Shown here: one piece after another, positions 6,186 through 26,064 of the stretch
Numbering within the stretch: position 1 is the first letter of the stretch
Layout of the letters: each line of letters starts with the position of its first letter
DNA from: Methanosalsum natronophilum
GTDB lineage: Archaea > Halobacteriota > Methanosarcinia > Methanosarcinales > Methanosarcinaceae
Assembly (NCBI RefSeq): GCF_024808815.1
Contig: NZ_JANUCS010000016.1
Coordinates: forward strand, 1-43,970
Reading direction: 5' to 3'
Length of the DNA: 43,970 nt
Made by a program: the position numbers and the translations under genes
Notes under the pieces: model-generated
Seen by the model: the letters and a program-made list of their open reading frames with translations, nothing else
Told to the model about the DNA's origin: nothing
The model's database searches: none

Positions 6186-8189
6186 TCAAACCTCTTTTGG
6201 AATCGATATTGTATAGCATGTCCCATCAAGATTATCAAGTCTCAAATCACCTTGTAATTGAGTTACAAGTAAGTTGATCACTTTTAATCCTAGTGTATTA
6301 AAGTTCATTTGTTCAAGGCTTTCAGGAATACCTATACCATCATCTTTGACGACAAGTTCATATCCATCATCATTTTCCTTAAATGATATGGAAATATGAC
6401 CTTTATCCTTGCCATCGAATGCATGCTTAAATGAATTAGTCACTATCTCATTTATTATCATGCCAAGAGGGATGGTTATATCCATGTTAAGATACAGTTC
6501 ATCTACATCGACCTCAAGGTCTACTGGTACGTTAACAGAACTGTTCATTTGTGATATATGTCTCATGAGGCTACTGACATAATCCGATATCTCAATACTT
6601 GCAACTGTGTCACCTGCATAAAGTTTCTCATGAGCTAGTGACATTGACCTTATCCTATTTTGATTCTCTTTAAGTGCAGCTTTGAAATGCTCATCTTTGA
6701 AAAGGTTAGATTGCATGCTAAGTAAACTGATAATGACCTGTAAATTGTTCTTAACACGATGATGTATCTCATGAATAAGAACTTGATTTCGTTCTAATTT
6801 TTCTAATTTTAGCCTATCATTTTCTGCATTCTTTTCGTCTGTGATATCTATTATATTTGCAACTATCCTCTCGACACCGTTGATATTTGCTTTATTTAAG
6901 TATACATGAACCCAAAATTCTTCTCCTGTAGATTTGCGATCAAGCCATTCGAACTGTTGCACCCCTTCAGATGCTGCTTTCCTAATCCATCCTACAGCAT
7001 CGCTTGAAGAGTAGGGAGAGCTTAAAAATTTCTTTTCTTTTTTGAGATCTCCAATTGAAGAAAAACCATAAGTTTTACAAGCAGTAGGGTTTGCATCTAT
7101 TATTTCTCCACTATCTTTATCATGAACAATGATAGAAATCGGAGAGAATACAAACAAAGATCTAAACTGTTCCTCTTTAATAATGATTTCCTCTTCCCTC
7201 TTTTTTAGCTCCTTATTCAGTGAATTGATATTTCTTGTCCATGCAACAATTACTAGCATTATGAGACCAGAAACAAACATTATTCTAAGAGCTAAACTAT
7301 AATCAGGTACACTTTCTGTAGTAGCTTCAATAGAAATATGTTTGTTAACAATATGCTGAACTTCTTGAGGTGTAATTGTATTTATTCCTTTGTTAAGAAT
7401 GTCCCTGAGCATTGGTTCATCCTTACAAACCCCTATTCTAAACTCGTTATAATATTCTGGAACTGTACCTGCAATCTTTAGATTGAACCAACCTTCGTCT
7501 CTGATAACATAAGCAGCAACTGTTAAAGAGCGAACAGTCATATCTGCCTCTCGATTTTCAATCATCCTAAATGCATCAGCTTCAGCTGAACCCGTGGTGA
7601 CTATTCTAAAGTGTGGATAATCGTTTCTTATTCTTTCTTCCATTGCTGTTCCAGAAGGCAAAGCAACTATAGGATCATCTAGTGCGTAAGGTTCAGATAT
7701 GAACTCATGTTCCTGATGTGTAATAAAAACAACTGGATCTGAGAAATATGGATCAGTGAAAAGAAGCCACTCATCGCGTGCGGGAGTTTGAGTTAAAAAA
7801 GCTAGTATATGGCATTTTCCCTCTTTAGAATATTCAAGGCTTTCTTCCCAGTCTTTTGTTGGAACAAGTTCTAGCTCTACACCCGACCTTTCAGCAATAA
7901 TATAAATAAGATCAGCAGCAATTCCCTCGAAGTTGCCATCCTCATGGACTATCTCATATGGCATCCAATCAGGGTCCACACACATCTTTACTGTCCCAAG
8001 TTGTGCCAGATAAGCTTCTTCCTCATGAGTTAAATCCACTCGAATATCGTTTATTTCTGAGTCGGTTTCGTCTTGCAAAATAAGATTATTTTCTTCACCA
8101 TATACAACCGTTCCCATTAATCCCATACCTAGAATAAGAAGTATTGGAATTAAGAGCCGAAAATGTTGCATAAAAGTTATAATTTTCAC
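6186..8189 (-). CDS. Sensor histidine kinase with periplasmic solute-binding (SBP_bac_3), PAS and HisKA_2 domains
   Basis: The 667 residues contain a signal peptide (1-31), an extracellular family-3 solute-binding domain (about 60-286), one membrane helix (299-318), a PAS domain (about 340-452), a HisKA_2 segment with EIHHRVKNNLQ (474-484; the phosphorylated His is probably 476 or 477) and an HATPase domain with N-box NEIVTNSFKH and G1 box DDGIGIP (616-622). It probably senses a small organic solute such as an amino acid outside the cell and phosphorylates a separate response regulator. No regulator is encoded nearby. The first codon is GTG; ATG 8171 (residue 7) is an alternative and neither has a clear ribosome binding site. 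Confidence 0.9.
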   Translation of the reverse strand: MKIITFMQHFRLLIPILLILGMGLMGTVVYGEENNLILQDETDSEINDIRVDLTHEEEAYLAQLGTVKMCVDPDWMPYEIVHEDGNFEGIAADLIYIIAERSGVELELVPTKDWEESLEYSKEGKCHILAFLTQTPARDEWLLFTDPYFSDPVVFITHQEHEFISEPYALDDPIVALPSGTAMEERIRNDYPHFRIVTTGSAEADAFRMIENREADMTVRSLTVAAYVIRDEGWFNLKIAGTVPEYYNEFRIGVCKDEPMLRDILNKGINTITPQEVQHIVNKHISIEATTESVPDYSLALRIMFVSGLIMLVIVAWTRNINSLNKELKKREEEIIIKEEQFRSLFVFSPISIIVHDKDSGEIIDANPTACKTYGFSSIGDLKKEKKFLSSPYSSSDAVGWIRKAASEGVQQFEWLDRKSTGEEFWVHVYLNKANINGVERIVANIIDITDEKNAENDRLKLEKLERNQVLIHEIHHRVKNNLQVIISLLSMQSNLFKDEHFKAALKENQNRIRSMSLAHEKLYAGDTVASIEISDYVSSLMRHISQMNSSVNVPVDLEVDVDELYLNMDITIPLGMIINEIVTNSFKHAFDGKDKGHISISFKENDDGYELVVKDDGIGIPESLEQMNFNTLGLKVINLLVTQLQGDLRLDNLDGTCYTISIPKEV

Positions 8190-8572
8190 ATTAAATAAAA
8201 CTATCTATATTCCAATTTAACTTTCTTCAACACTTATTTTAACATATGGAAGTCAGGAAAGGTTTCTCTAACATATTACAGACTGTCCTAAAATTCTCAT
8301 TATATTCAAGTTAATATTTGTTCCAGACTTCTAGATGACAGACCATGCTTAAAGATTTCATTGGATATTCTATGCAGTTGAAATTATGAAATTTATTTCA
8401 AACTCAGTTCCTTTTTCATATAACTATTTTACCTCAGTTCTTTTTTTTTTCTGCAGAACCTACCAATTTATTTATTATTTTTTTTTAAAAGTCACGCATA
8501 AATTATTGGATAGATAATATCCTGCGTAATTAGGTAAATGTGTTTAGAGCATTTAACTATATTATTATATAA
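8190..8572. other. Intergenic region without a recognised gene
   Basis: About 380 AT-rich bases lie between the kinase start and the tRNA 3' end. They contain long T runs at about 8438-8450 and 8480-8490, which could terminate transcription on the plus strand. No coding frame with a ribosome binding site and no RNA gene is evident. Confidence 0.3.
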
Positions 8573-20510: not shown

Positions 20511-20554
20511 TTTCAGGTTAATTTAGGTTACACGAAAATGTTTAAGTATAGGTA
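20511..20554 (+). promoter_or_regulatory. feoA promoter with possible iron-repressor sites
   Basis: Two direct AGGTTA hexamers (20515-20520 and 20525-20530), the second within TTTAGGTTA, resemble half-sites of DtxR/IdeR-type metal regulators. A TATA-like AAATATATT (20544-20552) follows, flanked by GGTA and TACC. The start codon at 20615 is about 60 nt on. Regulation by iron is inferred from the downstream feo genes. Confidence 0.35.
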
Positions 20555-20614
20555 AATATATTAATACCATCTAGATAATATAGGTATGTGAAACATTGAG
20601 GTAGGTGAATAAAA

Positions 20615-20827
20615 ATGGATCTTGCTAATTACAGAAAAGGTAAGCCATGCATAATAGAGCATATGCCAAAGAATAATCTTTTAAATTCAATGGGAATTAG
20701 GGAAGGATCTAGAGTTTCTATTAAGTCTAGACAACTTTTTGGTGGACCTCTAGTTATACAATATGGTAGTAGATGTTTAGCTATTGATAAAAAAATAGCT
20801 GAGAAGATTAAGATTAAAGAGGTATAA
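20615..20827 (+). CDS. feoA: FeoA, ferrous iron transport accessory protein
   Basis: The 70-residue SH3-like protein has the family layout: PCIIEHMPKNNLLNSMGIREGSRVSIKSRQLFGGPLVIQYGSRCLAIDKKIAEKIKI. FeoA is a small cytosolic protein that helps FeoB import Fe(II). GGTGA lies 6 nt before the ATG. It is first in the feo operon; the feoB start follows 3 nt after its stop, with feoB's ribosome binding site inside the feoA end. The product call is firm. Confidence 0.93.
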   Translation: MDLANYRKGKPCIIEHMPKNNLLNSMGIREGSRVSIKSRQLFGGPLVIQYGSRCLAIDKKIAEKIKIKEV

Positions 20828-20830
20828 TAA

Positions 20831-22594
20831 TTGAAATGCCATAATACCAAATCAAGGGGTTTGCCAAAGAGTGCACCTGATGACATTAGAATATTATTGA
20901 TGGGGAACCCTAATGTAGGTAAAAGTGTTATTTTCTCTAAACTTACTGGTGTTAATGTTATGGCAGCAAATTATGCTGGCACTACAGTAAGTTATACTGA
21001 AGGTGATATACATTATGGTAGAAAGACAGCAACTCTAATTGATGTCCCTGGTACTTATTCATTGGATGCTACTTCTCCCGCCGAAGAAGTTGCAGTTAAT
21101 TTCCTTGAAGATGGTGCTAATGTAATAGTTTGTGTCCTTGATGCAACTAATCTTGAAAGGAATTTGAACCTTGCACTGCAAGTCAAACATAAAGATATAC
21201 CAGTAGTTTATGCACTGAATCTAATTGATGTAGCTGAAAGTAAAGGAATACAAATTGATGTTGATAAGCTAGAAAAGGAACTGGATGCACCGGTCATTCC
21301 AACTATAGCTACACGTAACGTTGGGTTGAAAGAATTACTTGATAAAACATGGGAACGTGCCTTAAAAGATCCCGTGCCTACCGAACCTACCCATATATCA
21401 CATGATGAAAGGTGGGCAGAAGTTGGTCGAATTGTTGAAAATGTACAAATTGTTGAGCACCGGCATCCTACCTTTTGGGAACGTTTCGGTGATCTTGCAG
21501 TACAACCAATTCCTGGCATTCCGATTGCCATTTTAGTACTTGCATTATCTATAGGTTTTGTTGTTGGTGGTGGACAAGGAATAAGAGCAACTATTCTACT
21601 CCCATTACTAAACAATGTGTATGTTCCAGCAATTACTACTTTTGTATCAAGTTTTGTGCCTGAAGGAATTTTATTAAACGTTTTAGTAGGCGAATATGGT
21701 GTACTTATTAAAGGTATTGAATGGCCTTTTTTCTTAATATTACCTTATGTTGCATTGTTCTTTATTGTAATGTCATTTCTAGAGGATAGTGGATACCTTC
21801 CACGTTTAGGTATTCTATTAGATAGTATATTAAGACAAATTGGTATGACCGGAAGTAATGTTGTACCTATGGTAATGGGATACGGTTGTGCAGTTCCTGC
21901 AATATTGGGGACAAGAGCAGCTACATCAAAAAAACAGAGGTTAATGATAACGGGTTTAGTAGCTTTAGCTGTTCCATGTGTCTCACAAACGGGTGCCTTT
22001 ATAGCATTGCTCGGGGATCAATCAGTATTTGCATTGGTTTTTGTTTTCTTGACATCGCTTATAGCTTTAATGGTCGCTGGTGCGATTATGAACAGATTAA
22101 TACCCGGTGAAAATGAGCCTCTATTAATGGAAGTTCCAAATCTATTAAAGCCAAATAGCAATGCATTAGTTCAAAAAGTGTGGCTTAAAATCAAGCAGTT
22201 CGTATACGATGCTCAGGGTCCACTATTATTAGGGATATTATTTGCTGCATTACTCGTAGAAACGGGTTTACTTTTAGTGATAGCTAATGTACTTGAACCT
22301 TTAGTTGTAGGTTGGTTAGGACTGCCAAAAGAAGCAAGTTTAGCATTGATGCTTGGGATTGTAAGAAGAGAACTTGCAGTATTACCATTGCTAGCACTTG
22401 AACTAACTACATTACAGTTAATAGTTGGATCTTTGGTAGGTCTGTTTTACTTGCCGTGTATCACTGTACTTGCAGTTATCTTCAAGGAGTTTCACTTTAG
22501 ATTAGCAATCTACACATTATTGTTCACAACATTAACTGCATTCATATTTGGTGGCGTATTTAATCAAGTAGCCAGATTATTAGGATTTCAATAA
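20831..22594 (+). CDS. feoB: FeoB, ferrous iron transporter
   Basis: FeoB is the GTPase-linked membrane permease for Fe(II). The N-terminal G domain has G1 GNPNVGKS (25-32), a G2 threonine at about 51, G3 DVPG (71-74) and NLID (130-133) in place of the usual NxxD. Two Gate domains follow, with the cysteine segment GYGCAVPAILGTR and the later LGIVRRELAVLPLL. The remaining helices are clear. At 587 residues it is at the short end for FeoB. The TTG start is supported by GAGGT (20819-20823) 7 nt upstream. The Cys in the first Gate is the expected metal-path residue. It is followed by a methyltransferase gene 56 nt later. Confidence 0.95.
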   Translation: MKCHNTKSRGLPKSAPDDIRILLMGNPNVGKSVIFSKLTGVNVMAANYAGTTVSYTEGDIHYGRKTATLIDVPGTYSLDATSPAEEVAVNFLEDGANVIVCVLDATNLERNLNLALQVKHKDIPVVYALNLIDVAESKGIQIDVDKLEKELDAPVIPTIATRNVGLKELLDKTWERALKDPVPTEPTHISHDERWAEVGRIVENVQIVEHRHPTFWERFGDLAVQPIPGIPIAILVLALSIGFVVGGGQGIRATILLPLLNNVYVPAITTFVSSFVPEGILLNVLVGEYGVLIKGIEWPFFLILPYVALFFIVMSFLEDSGYLPRLGILLDSILRQIGMTGSNVVPMVMGYGCAVPAILGTRAATSKKQRLMITGLVALAVPCVSQTGAFIALLGDQSVFALVFVFLTSLIALMVAGAIMNRLIPGENEPLLMEVPNLLKPNSNALVQKVWLKIKQFVYDAQGPLLLGILFAALLVETGLLLVIANVLEPLVVGWLGLPKEASLALMLGIVRRELAVLPLLALELTTLQLIVGSLVGLFYLPCITVLAVIFKEFHFRLAIYTLLFTTLTAFIFGGVFNQVARLLGFQ

Positions 22595-22650
22595 AATAGA
22601 GTGTCTAAAGTAAATCAGAATAAAGCGCAATACTAAAATAAGGTAAATAG

Positions 22651-23301
22651 ATGCTACTCAAGTTAACAAAGCAGGTAGAATTTTTTTCTGCTAGATCAAC
22701 TTTATTTTCTAAATTATATCAATTATATTACAAGAATAAAGTTAGAAAAGAAGTAAATCTGGCAAACATATCATGTAGTGATAAAGTGCTGTGCATTGGT
22801 GGTGGACCAACACCATTCACAGCAATAGAAATCGTTAAACAGAGTGGTGCCAAGGTTACAATAGTAGATAATGATATAAATGCAATAAATACTGCAAATG
22901 AATTGATTAATAGATTAGGTATGAACGATTCCATTAACCTCGTTCTTAGTGATGGAAGAGATGTTAGATTAAAATATTATACTATTGTACATGTTGCACT
23001 TCAAGTGCACCCAAAAAAAGATATTATTAATCACATCTGTCAAAATGCAGAAAAATATACTAAAATATTGGTTAGAACCTCGGATTTTTCATTTAATAAT
23101 AATCTATACGGAATAAAAACCAATCTTTGCCAGAAAGATATTGATTGTGTATCTGCTAATTTCAACTGTTTAAAGTATAGACAAGAGAAATTAACGCTTT
23201 TTATAAATAAACACATGAGCTCTGAAAATGAAGAAAATTGTTCTTTATCTTCTTGGAATTTCAATAATAATAGTAGTACTATTGACTTCAGAAATAAATG
23301 A
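22651..23301 (+). CDS. Nicotianamine-synthase-like class I methyltransferase
   Basis: The 216-residue protein has a Rossmann motif VLCIGGGPTPFTAIEIVKQSG (GGGP at 50-53), acidic D73 after the second strand, and VRTSDFSFNNNLYGI later. The pattern of IGGGPxPxT, a VALQVHPKKDII helix and a KILVRT strand recalls archaeal nicotianamine synthase-like enzymes, which use SAM as an aminobutyrate donor to make metal ligands. Its place after feoAB supports a metal role. The last 25 or so residues (NEENCSLSSWNFNNN...) are low in complexity, overlap the next gene by 74 nt and are probably run-on. AAGGT precedes the ATG. An ordinary methyltransferase remains possible. Confidence 0.62.
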   Translation: MLLKLTKQVEFFSARSTLFSKLYQLYYKNKVRKEVNLANISCSDKVLCIGGGPTPFTAIEIVKQSGAKVTIVDNDINAINTANELINRLGMNDSINLVLSDGRDVRLKYYTIVHVALQVHPKKDIINHICQNAEKYTKILVRTSDFSFNNNLYGIKTNLCQKDIDCVSANFNCLKYRQEKLTLFINKHMSSENEENCSLSSWNFNNNSSTIDFRNK

Positions 23302-24214
23302 AACACTTGAAGCTGTAGGCTCAGTGAACACTATTGCACTCTTAGTACTATGTATACTCCAAATAATCACACTTCTCTTGATAACATCACAGTGGAAATT
23401 GATTTCTAAAAAGTTAATTCGGGATTTAACTTTTTTAAGTGTACTTGATGTGAATATGAAAGGAACACTTGTAGAAACATTAACTCCTGCGTTAAAAACA
23501 GGCGGTGAAGTAACTAAATATTATTTGATGAAATCTAAATGGAACATTTCAAGTTTCGATTCTGTCACTATAATATACATTCAAAAACTTATCAGTATTT
23601 TTACATTTACTGGCATTACACTATTGATATTTTTATGGATGATATTTGGGGACTTGAGATATTATGAACTAGTATCAAGTTCATTTGAACTGACTATGTT
23701 TGTGCTCCTTGCATTGTTATTAATATTTTCTAGTATACTATTATACCCAAAGAAAACATTTGAAATAGTTAGAAAAATACCATTAGAAATGAGAGGAAAG
23801 CAAAAGCTTAATTCTACTATAAAAGAGTTTAATGCCTCGGTCAAGAAAATTAATTTGAATTCATCTGATTACATTAAACTGTTCATACTCGCTACCATAA
23901 TATGGACATTATTCGGTATAAAAGGGTATTTACTCGCAGAATCAATGAATATGGGGTTAGGATTTGCAATAGTATTTGCTATTACAATACTATCATATCT
24001 TGTTGGAATGTTACCTATAACACCTGGTGGACTGGGGACATTTGAGGCTACTATGGTATTATTATTAGGAACTGTTGGAATTAGTGTTTCCACAGGTATA
24101 GTATTTGCAATTATATTCAGGTTTGTTACATACTGGTTTGTTTTTATTATAAGCTTGATATATGTGTCCATATCCAAGATTTCAAGCCAATTAAGTATGT
24201 TACTAAATCATTGA
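23228..24214 (+). CDS. UPF0104 / lysylphosphatidylglycerol-synthase-like flippase-domain membrane protein
   Basis: The 328-residue protein has about eight hydrophobic helices. The signature of the YbhN/AglD family is present as EVTKYYLMK after GTLVETLTPALKTGG, then GMLPITPGGLGTFEATMVLLL near the C-terminus. Relatives move lipid-linked molecules or assist glycosyl or amino-acid lipid modification, mostly without assigned substrates. The ATG lies inside the end of the methyltransferase gene (74-nt overlap in another frame), so the two are translated from one transcript. As the last gene of the feo cluster it could export or anchor a product, which is speculative. It converges on citrate synthase. 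Confidence 0.82.
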   Translation: MKKIVLYLLGISIIIVVLLTSEINETLEAVGSVNTIALLVLCILQIITLLLITSQWKLISKKLIRDLTFLSVLDVNMKGTLVETLTPALKTGGEVTKYYLMKSKWNISSFDSVTIIYIQKLISIFTFTGITLLIFLWMIFGDLRYYELVSSSFELTMFVLLALLLIFSSILLYPKKTFEIVRKIPLEMRGKQKLNSTIKEFNASVKKINLNSSDYIKLFILATIIWTLFGIKGYLLAESMNMGLGFAIVFAITILSYLVGMLPITPGGLGTFEATMVLLLGTVGISVSTGIVFAIIFRFVTYWFVFIISLIYVSISKISSQLSMLLNH

Positions 24215-25488: not shown

Positions 25489-26064
25489 TTACATTATATA
25501 AATAACAGTATGTGCTACAAAACCTGAAAGGACAGGAATAGCTAGATTATCGTCAAGTTCTGTGAACCAAAGTTCTGTTAAAGATGCAGTTATAGCCATA
25601 AATAGAACAACATAATGATAACCAAATATAAAAAAGGCAATCAGTACATTCATGAATAAACCTGCAAAGGTTCCTTCATAAGATTTAGCAGTATTCGATA
25701 TTTTGTTTTTCCCAAACAACATACCAAATATTGCAGCTGTTGCATCTCCAAATGATGCCATTAAAATTGAAGCTATTGCAATTTCAAAACTAAATAAAGA
25801 TATTGATATTATTGCTCCTAACAAAAAATAAAGGTGGCCAGCTAGTGATTTTTTTTCAAAGTCCCTTAACAGCTCACCAAAAAAAGGTACTTTTATTCTA
25901 TACTTCAGCCTAAAGTTCTCAAAAAGAATGAAAATAATCAGTATTATCAATAAAATATTTAGGGTTAGCTCTTTGCCACCAAATGCATATATCAAAACGA
26001 TTAAAACTGAAGATATATGTATGCCTTTACGTTTTAATTCGTGCAGAATGAATCCTAAATGCAT
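25489..26064 (-). CDS. Polyprenol/diacylglycerol kinase-like membrane protein (cytidylyltransferase/SEC59 family)
   Basis: This 191-residue integral membrane protein has about six helices. ELKRKGIHISS at the N-terminus, GDATAAIFGMLFG (about 107-119) and KSYEGTFAG (about 127-135) then DDNLAIPVLSG match the dolichol kinase and phytol kinase family, which use CTP to phosphorylate polyprenols. It could recycle geranylgeraniol or another isoprenoid alcohol in the membrane. The ATG lacks a clear ribosome binding site and may be translated from a short leader. It lies between citrate synthase and argG without tight linkage. The substrate is unknown. Confidence 0.8.
   Translation of the reverse strand: MHLGFILHELKRKGIHISSVLIVLIYAFGGKELTLNILLIILIIFILFENFRLKYRIKVPFFGELLRDFEKKSLAGHLYFLLGAIISISLFSFEIAIASILMASFGDATAAIFGMLFGKNKISNTAKSYEGTFAGLFMNVLIAFFIFGYHYVVLFMAITASLTELWFTELDDNLAIPVLSGFVAHTVIYIM

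Follow-up and report, generated by a model that had tools for sequence, protein, structure and literature searches.

Gene content of the locus

The window, a stretch of 43,970 nucleotides from Methanosalsum natronophilum, carries four genes on the same strand at positions 20615-24214, namely feoA, feoB, a short gene related to nicotianamine synthases (NAS), which produce the metal ligand nicotianamine known from plants, and a gene of the PF03706/UPF0104 family (Table 1). This is the order proposed in the original prediction, including the overlap of the last two genes, and both open reading frames and profile matches bear it out. The overlap amounts to 74 nt and is retained in the relatives G073 and G049 with 65 nt. 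The start of the NAS-like gene could be kept as predicted, but its reading frame does not end at 23220 and runs on to 23301. An in-frame TAG at 22648 immediately precedes the ATG, and hence the short N-terminus of the protein is genuine. Together with orthologs of the same size, this stop codon rules out that the gene is a truncation or a pseudogene.

Table 1. Positions of genes, candidate regulatory elements and catalytic codons in the window
Feature	Positions	Strand	Description
Candidate archaeal feoA promoter	20533..20548	+	BRE-like CGAAAAT and TATA-like TTTAAGTA; element type assigned by eye
Candidate operator	20564..20587	.	putative; imperfect palindrome ATACC-N14-GGTAT at the expected transcription start
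feoA	20615..20827	+	70 aa, FeoA domain; PF04023 4.1e-14, above cut-off
feoB	20831..22594	+	587 aa; G domain, Gate, FeoB_C; PF02421, PF07670 and PF07664 above cut-offs
Short NAS-like gene	22651..23301	+	216 aa; SAM-binding Rossmann domain of NAS/CntL type; PF03059 30.9 bits
E10 codon	22678..22680	+	corresponds to CntL E84 / MtNAS E81; aligns with the Q of E84Q chain 7c9k
Y27 codon	22729..22731	+	corresponds to MtNAS Y107 by alignment
PF03706/UPF0104 membrane protein gene	23228..24214	+	328 aa, MprF-flippase-like; PF03706 1.2e-39

The feo part of the locus is that of a regular Feo system: FeoA and FeoB are adjacent, and the FeoA domain, the FeoB G domain and the Gate/FeoB_C membrane domains are all present with profiles above cut-off. 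FeoB, which starts with TTG and is the only full FeoB encoded in the genome, exceeds the equivalog cut-off of TIGR00437 (330 bits) and is a predicted Fe(II) transporter. In contrast to known Feo systems, FeoC was not recognised in the feo cluster of the window, while a NAS-like and a flippase-like gene are added. Plasmid searches gave no result.

Upstream of feoA, the candidate promoter is kept, along with a TTAAGTA motif, in the aligned regions of G073 and G072 and less well in G049. The arms of the candidate operator covary, reading TTAACC..GGTTAA in G073. A sigma-70 promoter scan, a model inapplicable to archaea, gave nothing above chance.

The short NAS-like protein

The NAS-like protein matches PF03059 with 30.9 bits against a curated gathering cut-off of 27.1, over profile positions 120-241 of 276, whereas some of its short relatives stay under this cut-off, e.g., with 22-23 bits. 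Its only clear sequence relatives in the PDB, at 1e-8, are CntL, the staphylopine synthase subunit (7C7M/7C9K/7C9M), which scores best, and MtNAS, the Methanothermobacter thermonicotianamine synthase (PF03059; 3FPE/3FPG/3FPJ/3O31). An AlphaFold2 model matches MtNAS best (TM 0.73) and CntL as well. A kinship with NAS had been predicted from the sequence, with profile search, active-site residues and structural comparison with the Methanothermobacter enzyme named as checks. All three agree with it, and a best match to an unrelated methyltransferase family was not seen.

The protein shares with MtNAS the fold, the SAM-binding glycine motif, the proposed catalytic Glu and Tyr, and the conserved PK and Arg. 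The catalytic motif KQVE of CntL aligns without gaps, and the distance from E to Y is 17 in both proteins. We mapped the catalytic Glu through E84 of this motif; the raw HMMER alignment would have placed it in 'VIESDSPW' of MtNAS, but comparison of the wild-type and E81Q chains locates E81 in 'KLEMEKA'. E10 and Y27, the proposed catalytic residues, are invariant in 22 out of 22 short NAS sequences, and so are E34 and R142. A degenerate remnant that has lost the catalytic Glu can thus be dismissed.

The predicted kinship stands, but not as a standard nicotianamine synthase, since the N-terminal domain of MtNAS and CntL is missing. Two-domain NAS proteins have about 270-320 aa, while the window protein begins only 9 residues ahead of the catalytic Glu. 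Its best NCBIfam profile is that of CntL (NF033601), with 42.3 bits far below the equivalog cut-off of 350 bits. It does not belong to the long archaeal NAS group of Methanosarcina and others either: the two form separate clades (100/100 for the long archaeal NAS tested) with a wide score gap, and tblastn detected neither feo nor PF03706 genes near those long-NAS loci that were inspected. The context also sets the window protein apart from MtNAS and CntL: its gene lies in a Feo cluster beside one for a flippase-like protein, and among the neighbours inspected there was no sign of a racemase, an opine dehydrogenase or a Cnt transporter.

Linkage to feo and to a flippase-like partner

Short NAS loci were found 17 times, in 15 genomes of eight families, by a profile-search survey within one archaeal phylum; one scan of GTDB contigs yielded a single relative. 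Thirteen of these loci adjoin feoB, and a PF03706 gene is present in 15 out of 16 testable cases. The NAS-like and PF03706 proteins share 37-43% identity with their closest relatives and 22-30% with those of other families, and recurrence of the arrangement among proteins so diverged argues against chance. A second short NAS, fused to FeoA, occurs in three lineages. These fusions, which are not mentioned in a survey of Feo systems (PMC8749426), strengthen the case made by the linkage to feo, whose conservation in related genomes had been named as a check and is seen in several families.

It is very unlikely that a generic methyltransferase and a glycosylation or lipid flippase came to lie beside feo by accident. 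PF03706 proteins are indeed common and tied to glycosylation in archaea (PMC5898192), three NAS-PF03706 pairs have no feo nearby, and generic methyltransferase profiles match some short NAS members, in some of them with a higher score than NAS. For the window protein, however, NAS and CntL outscore generic methyltransferases, which makes that assignment less likely, and an accidental neighbourhood accounts neither for the 13 of 17 feoB-linked loci in the eight families surveyed nor for the NAS-FeoA fusions in three lineages.

The fusions bear on two further explanations. The NAS-like domain might be non-catalytic and act in place of FeoC, as a Feo subunit that senses SAM or iron. The fusion to FeoA would fit this, and so would the lack of a recognised FeoC in the window cluster. 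Cys residues point the same way: each of the three G436-class fusion proteins has a four-Cys motif, C-x5-C-x2-C-x5-C, behind its NAS domain, and Methanosalsum-type short NAS carry Cys in their tail. The motif is missing from several members, however, and the strict conservation of Glu and Tyr across very diverged sequences favours catalysis, so that we regard a sensor as improbable. Alternatively, the domain could attach an aminocarboxypropyl or methyl group to a protein, e.g., FeoB, FeoA or the PF03706 protein, and thereby regulate transport. SAM-dependent aminocarboxypropyl transfer to macromolecules is known (PMC10491745), the fusions place the NAS domain in the Feo complex, and the missing N-terminal domain would let a protein substrate in. 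Such a modification nevertheless leaves the dedicated flippase-like partner and the feo-less NAS-PF03706 pairs unexplained, and appears quite unlikely.

The partner itself matches PF03706/TIGR00374 with 137 bits (PF03706 cut-off 33.4), a family reviewed as flippases (PMC5898192). Its AlphaFold2 model (pLDDT 85) has MprF flippases as sole confident fold matches (TM 0.57-0.65). Unlike MprF, a lysyl-phosphatidylglycerol synthase/flippase, it has no aminoacyl-tRNA-dependent synthase domain, and its partner is a SAM-dependent protein of the NAS type. The PF03706 proteins linked to short NAS genes form one clade of their own (94/93), a subfamily of PF03706/COG0392/UPF0104 with distinct invariant residues, and its branching tracks the NAS tree. 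Pairwise distances of the two proteins correlate with r 0.94, a value that includes shared descent. M. natronophilum has two PF03706 genes, one of them at the feo locus, while the only two of G436 and the only one of G049 all adjoin short NAS genes.

A possible function in Fe(II) uptake

The four genes form a recurrent module, and we tentatively read it as dedicated to Fe(II) uptake, with a SAM-dependent aminocarboxypropyltransferase that makes a metal-binding, probably lipid-borne headgroup and a flippase that moves it outward to feed FeoB. The invariant residues, the fold match to MtNAS and CntL, the linkage to feoB and PF03706, the fusions, the matching trees and the MprF fold suggest such a module. 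Three NAS-PF03706 loci without feo and the short NAS of G190, which has neither partner, count against it.

As for the chemistry, we infer that the short NAS works like MtNAS and CntL, passing 3-amino-3-carboxypropyl groups of SAM on to an amine and setting free methylthioadenosine. This amine probably belongs to the headgroup of a membrane lipid or to some other molecule retained at the membrane, because the active site lies more open once the N-terminal domain is lost and a protein of the lipid-flippase type is the constant partner. The pair would then work like MprF, i.e., as a headgroup-modifying enzyme plus flippase, with NAS chemistry in place of the synthase. The flippase would display a metal-binding headgroup rich in amino and carboxylate groups on the outer face, and this headgroup would gather Fe(II) for FeoB. 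Cells short of free Fe(II), for instance at high pH, would presumably gain most. Coupling of synthesis to transport may come from FeoA or from the second, FeoA-fused NAS.

The original prediction had a module that makes and moves or anchors a metal-binding small molecule along with Fe(II) import. The flippase-like character of the membrane protein holds, but since it is of the MprF lipid-flippase kind, a lipid-borne ligand is no less likely than a small soluble molecule. A nicotianamine/xNA-like ligand made from an amino acid could serve as a cytosolic Fe(II) chaperone behind FeoB or as a metallophore exported by the PF03706 protein. The characterised NAS-type relatives, MtNAS, CntL and plant NAS, all start from amino acids or SAM and make ligands that are soluble (PMC10491745, PMC10248798), and the proposed catalytic residues are retained. 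We still consider this unlikely, given that the N-terminal domain is absent, the partner is a lipid-flippase-type protein, and neither a system for uptake of the loaded ligand nor an opine dehydrogenase was recognised in the clusters whose neighbours were inspected.

In its most far-reaching form, the preferred reading is a 'metallolipid' iron capture. An archaeal membrane lipid would receive a nicotianamine-like headgroup from the NAS-type enzyme, reach the outside through the MprF-type flippase and there hand Fe(II) to FeoB; we find this conceivable but somewhat unlikely. Phosphatidylserine is a plausible acceptor. The consulted passages of a lipid survey of M. natronophilum and Methanocalculus alkaliphilus, where iron limitation was not tested, do not list such a headgroup and give phosphatidylserine as absent from the haloarchaea and Mc. 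alkaliphilus (PMC6423904). Both points count against the preferred reading, as does the role of PF03706 proteins in glycosylation.

Feo is regarded as an importer of free Fe(II), and characterised NAS-type metallophores are soluble. We know of neither a ligand-assisted Feo system nor a lipid-borne metallophore. No published account of the four-gene arrangement turned up in literature searches on archaeal NAS and FeoB, in accordance with the initial view that it is not a described system. The presence of NAS-like and flippase-like genes beside feo in several unrelated archaea points to an undescribed way of iron capture, perhaps with a modified membrane lipid. The conserved module, which combines FeoAB with NAS chemistry and a protein of the lipid-flippase type and also has the fusions, could represent a ligand-assisted Feo system, possibly with a lipid-borne metallophore. 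Iron acquisition and sensing in methanogens have been described as little known (PMC8351635). The four-gene set is directly testable, and relatives are in culture. A metallolipid system, if true, would correspond to a siderophore anchored in the membrane, and anoxic waters that are alkaline and poor in iron may favour it.

Identity of the short nicotianamine synthase-like protein

The predicted set of feoA, feoB, a gene resembling nicotianamine synthase (NAS) and a UPF0104 (PF03706) membrane protein gene was indeed found in the window, with all four genes on the same strand. The surroundings are ordinary, with a pyrimidine-nucleoside/AMP-phosphorylase-like gene upstream on the opposite strand and citrate synthase downstream. 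A 191-aa membrane protein of the window that has no Pfam match resembles, by eye, SEC59/cytidylyltransferase-type lipid enzymes. Genome-wide there is a single full FeoB, and PF03706 is represented by two genes.

Features of the module and of related loci (L, contigs; window positions where no contig is given)
Feature	Location	Strand	Remark
feoA	20615-20827	+	placed as FeoA by Pfam/NCBIfam
feoB	20831-22594	+	TTG start; TIGR00437 equivalog
NAS-like gene	22651-23301	+	216 aa; PF03059
membrane protein gene	23228-24214	+	328 aa; PF03706/TIGR00374
palindrome	20564-20587		ATACC-N14-GGTAT
membrane protein	25489-26064		191 aa
short NAS of genome G190	L083:6396-6974
NAS-FeoA fusion, four-Cys motif	L088:8358-9398
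NAS-FeoA fusion, four-Cys motif	L174:6583-7563
NAS-FeoA fusion, four-Cys motif	L176:8560-9870
second FeoA-FeoB pair, family f19	L084:718-3270
second FeoA-FeoB pair, family f19	L085:10295-12871
second feoA copy, soda-lake MAG	L092:7439-7642 and 8097-8237

The window protein scores 30.9 bits against the NAS profile PF03059 (cut-off 27.1), and its only confident sequence relatives in the PDB, at about 1e-8, are the Methanothermobacter thermonicotianamine synthase (MtNAS) and the staphylopine synthase subunit CntL. It reaches 42 bits with the NCBIfam profile of CntL, but this is far under the 350-bit cut-off. In line with the original prediction of a NAS-like protein, the AlphaFold2 model (pLDDT 75, pTM 0.74; good to residue about 144, with a poor tail) is closest to MtNAS (TM 0.73), and CntL comes second. 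The protein starts nine residues ahead of the catalytic Glu and a stop codon lies immediately upstream; it therefore has no counterpart of the MtNAS and CntL N-terminal domain. We refer to such proteins as short NAS and to the other archaeal relatives as long NAS.

The KQVE motif aligns on KQVE of CntL, where chain 7c9k of the E84Q mutant reads KQVQ, and thus E10 corresponds to CntL E84. Comparison of the wild-type MtNAS chain with the E81Q chain locates the exchanged residue at the E of KLEMEKA; this sets the numbering and identifies the residue aligned to Y27 as Tyr107. Glu81 and Tyr107 of MtNAS are the proposed proton acceptors for amine attack on SAM (PMC10491745). E10, Y27, E34 and R142 are invariant in all 22 short NAS proteins.

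Occurrence, linkage to feo and fusion to FeoA

Profile searches covered the order (186 genomes), the class (238), two phylum samples (393 and 392), the class of genome G436 (322 genomes; haloarchaea by inference) and the family of G222 (33). They revealed short NAS at 17 loci in 15 genomes of eight families. With broader profiles most short NAS exceed 150 bits, whereas every other NAS-like protein stays below about 90, and in the tree short and long NAS fall into separate clades (100/100 support). Presence is patchy even inside genera, suggesting that the genes were transferred or lost; two genomes of the G222 genus have no cassette. Tandem arrays of long NAS-like genes are seen in Methanosarcina-type genomes and in others (L100, L101, L102); neither feo nor PF03706 was found near these arrays.

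The expected linkage to feo is borne out by the neighbourhood survey, since feoB adjoins short NAS at 13 of the 17 loci (G000, G072, G073, G049, G027, G517, G222, G352, G284, G333, G436, G595 and G784). A PF03706 gene belongs to the cluster at 15 of the 16 testable loci, that of G333 stopping at a contig edge. Three of these 15 pairs, the second loci of G436 and G784 and that of G648, have no feo nearby, and the short NAS of G190 has neither partner. The G190 copy is flanked by an ABC transporter of the MacB/FtsX type and a cytochrome-c-assembly protein. It clusters with the copy of G333, and in each of the two the glycine motif is one residue short.

Families f19 and f6 and the class of G436 have two short NAS genes each, the second of which carries a fused C-terminal FeoA domain (PF04023, 1e-10 to 1e-12 in the three tested). 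The fused forms constitute a single clade. Fusion of this kind argues strongly for joint action of the NAS domain and the Feo system. The three fusions from the G436 class contain a four-Cys motif, C-x5-C-x2-C-x5-C, between the two domains, a candidate binding site for a metal or an Fe-S cluster. In genomes of f19 the module is immediately followed by a second FeoA-FeoB pair (FeoB 688 aa), and in the soda-lake MAG described below a second feoA copy, partial or frame-divided, precedes feoB.

The membrane partner and the FeoB type

In a tree with the remaining PF03706 copies of these genomes, the NAS-linked ones group in a single clade (94/93), and its branching matches that of the NAS proteins. 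The invariant residues of this clade, including Q45, T48, W56, E83, K90, K120, K232, Y257, W303 and S309, differ in most unlinked copies, as befits a dedicated partner. Pairwise distances correlate at 0.94 for NAS-PF03706 and 0.85 for NAS-FeoB; as shared descent is included, the former value supports the partnership but does not prove it. Among solved structures, the lysyl-phosphatidylglycerol synthase/flippase MprF is the sole confident match of the PF03706 model (pLDDT 85; TM 0.57-0.65). A flippase function had been predicted for all of the family by comparative analysis (PMC5898192), and the UPF0104-family protein HVO_1859 of Haloferax volcanii is 11.6-fold up in iron starvation (PMC11349517).

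The window FeoB is unlike the 650-750 aa FeoB of most other Methanosarcinaceae. It matches the NAS-linked FeoB of G073 and G049 with >1000 bits, that of G517 with 530 and the unlinked FeoB of f6 with about 430-450, but ordinary FeoB of its own family with only about 170-190 bits. These scores suggest that it was gained horizontally and replaced the usual gene, and would fit a gain of the cassette as a whole.

Possible role of the module

The individual parts of the module all belong to known families. What appears to be new is their combination, together with the stripped-down NAS and the NAS-FeoA fusion. No description of NAS together with Feo in archaea was found in the open literature, a coverage that leaves out most subscription papers.

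These features are most simply read as an MprF-like pair that uses NAS chemistry and serves FeoB. Short NAS would move 3-amino-3-carboxypropyl groups from SAM onto an amine, and the PF03706 partner would carry the presumably metal-binding product across the membrane to the benefit of FeoB. Loss of the N-terminal domain should leave the active site more open, which would favour a lipid headgroup or a membrane-held acceptor over a free amino acid. The consulted passages of a lipid survey that did not include iron-limited cells list no such lipid for Methanosalsum natronophilum and Methanocalculus alkaliphilus (PMC6423904). Less probably, the product may be a soluble ligand, the NAS-like domain may modify a protein or act as a sensor, or the module may belong to a pathway unrelated to iron.

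Upstream of feoA, the window has a promoter-like element CGAAAAT...TTTAAGTA with a conserved TATA-like box, less well kept in G049. The palindrome, located 3' of this box and before feoA, has arms that covary between G000 and G073 (TTAACC/GGTTAA in the latter) and is a possible operator of an iron regulator. The cassette of G049 (L032) comes from a MAG of soda-lake sediment, and cassette presence may track alkaliphily. We hypothesize that the module would provide ligand assistance at high pH, where Fe(II) is scarce.
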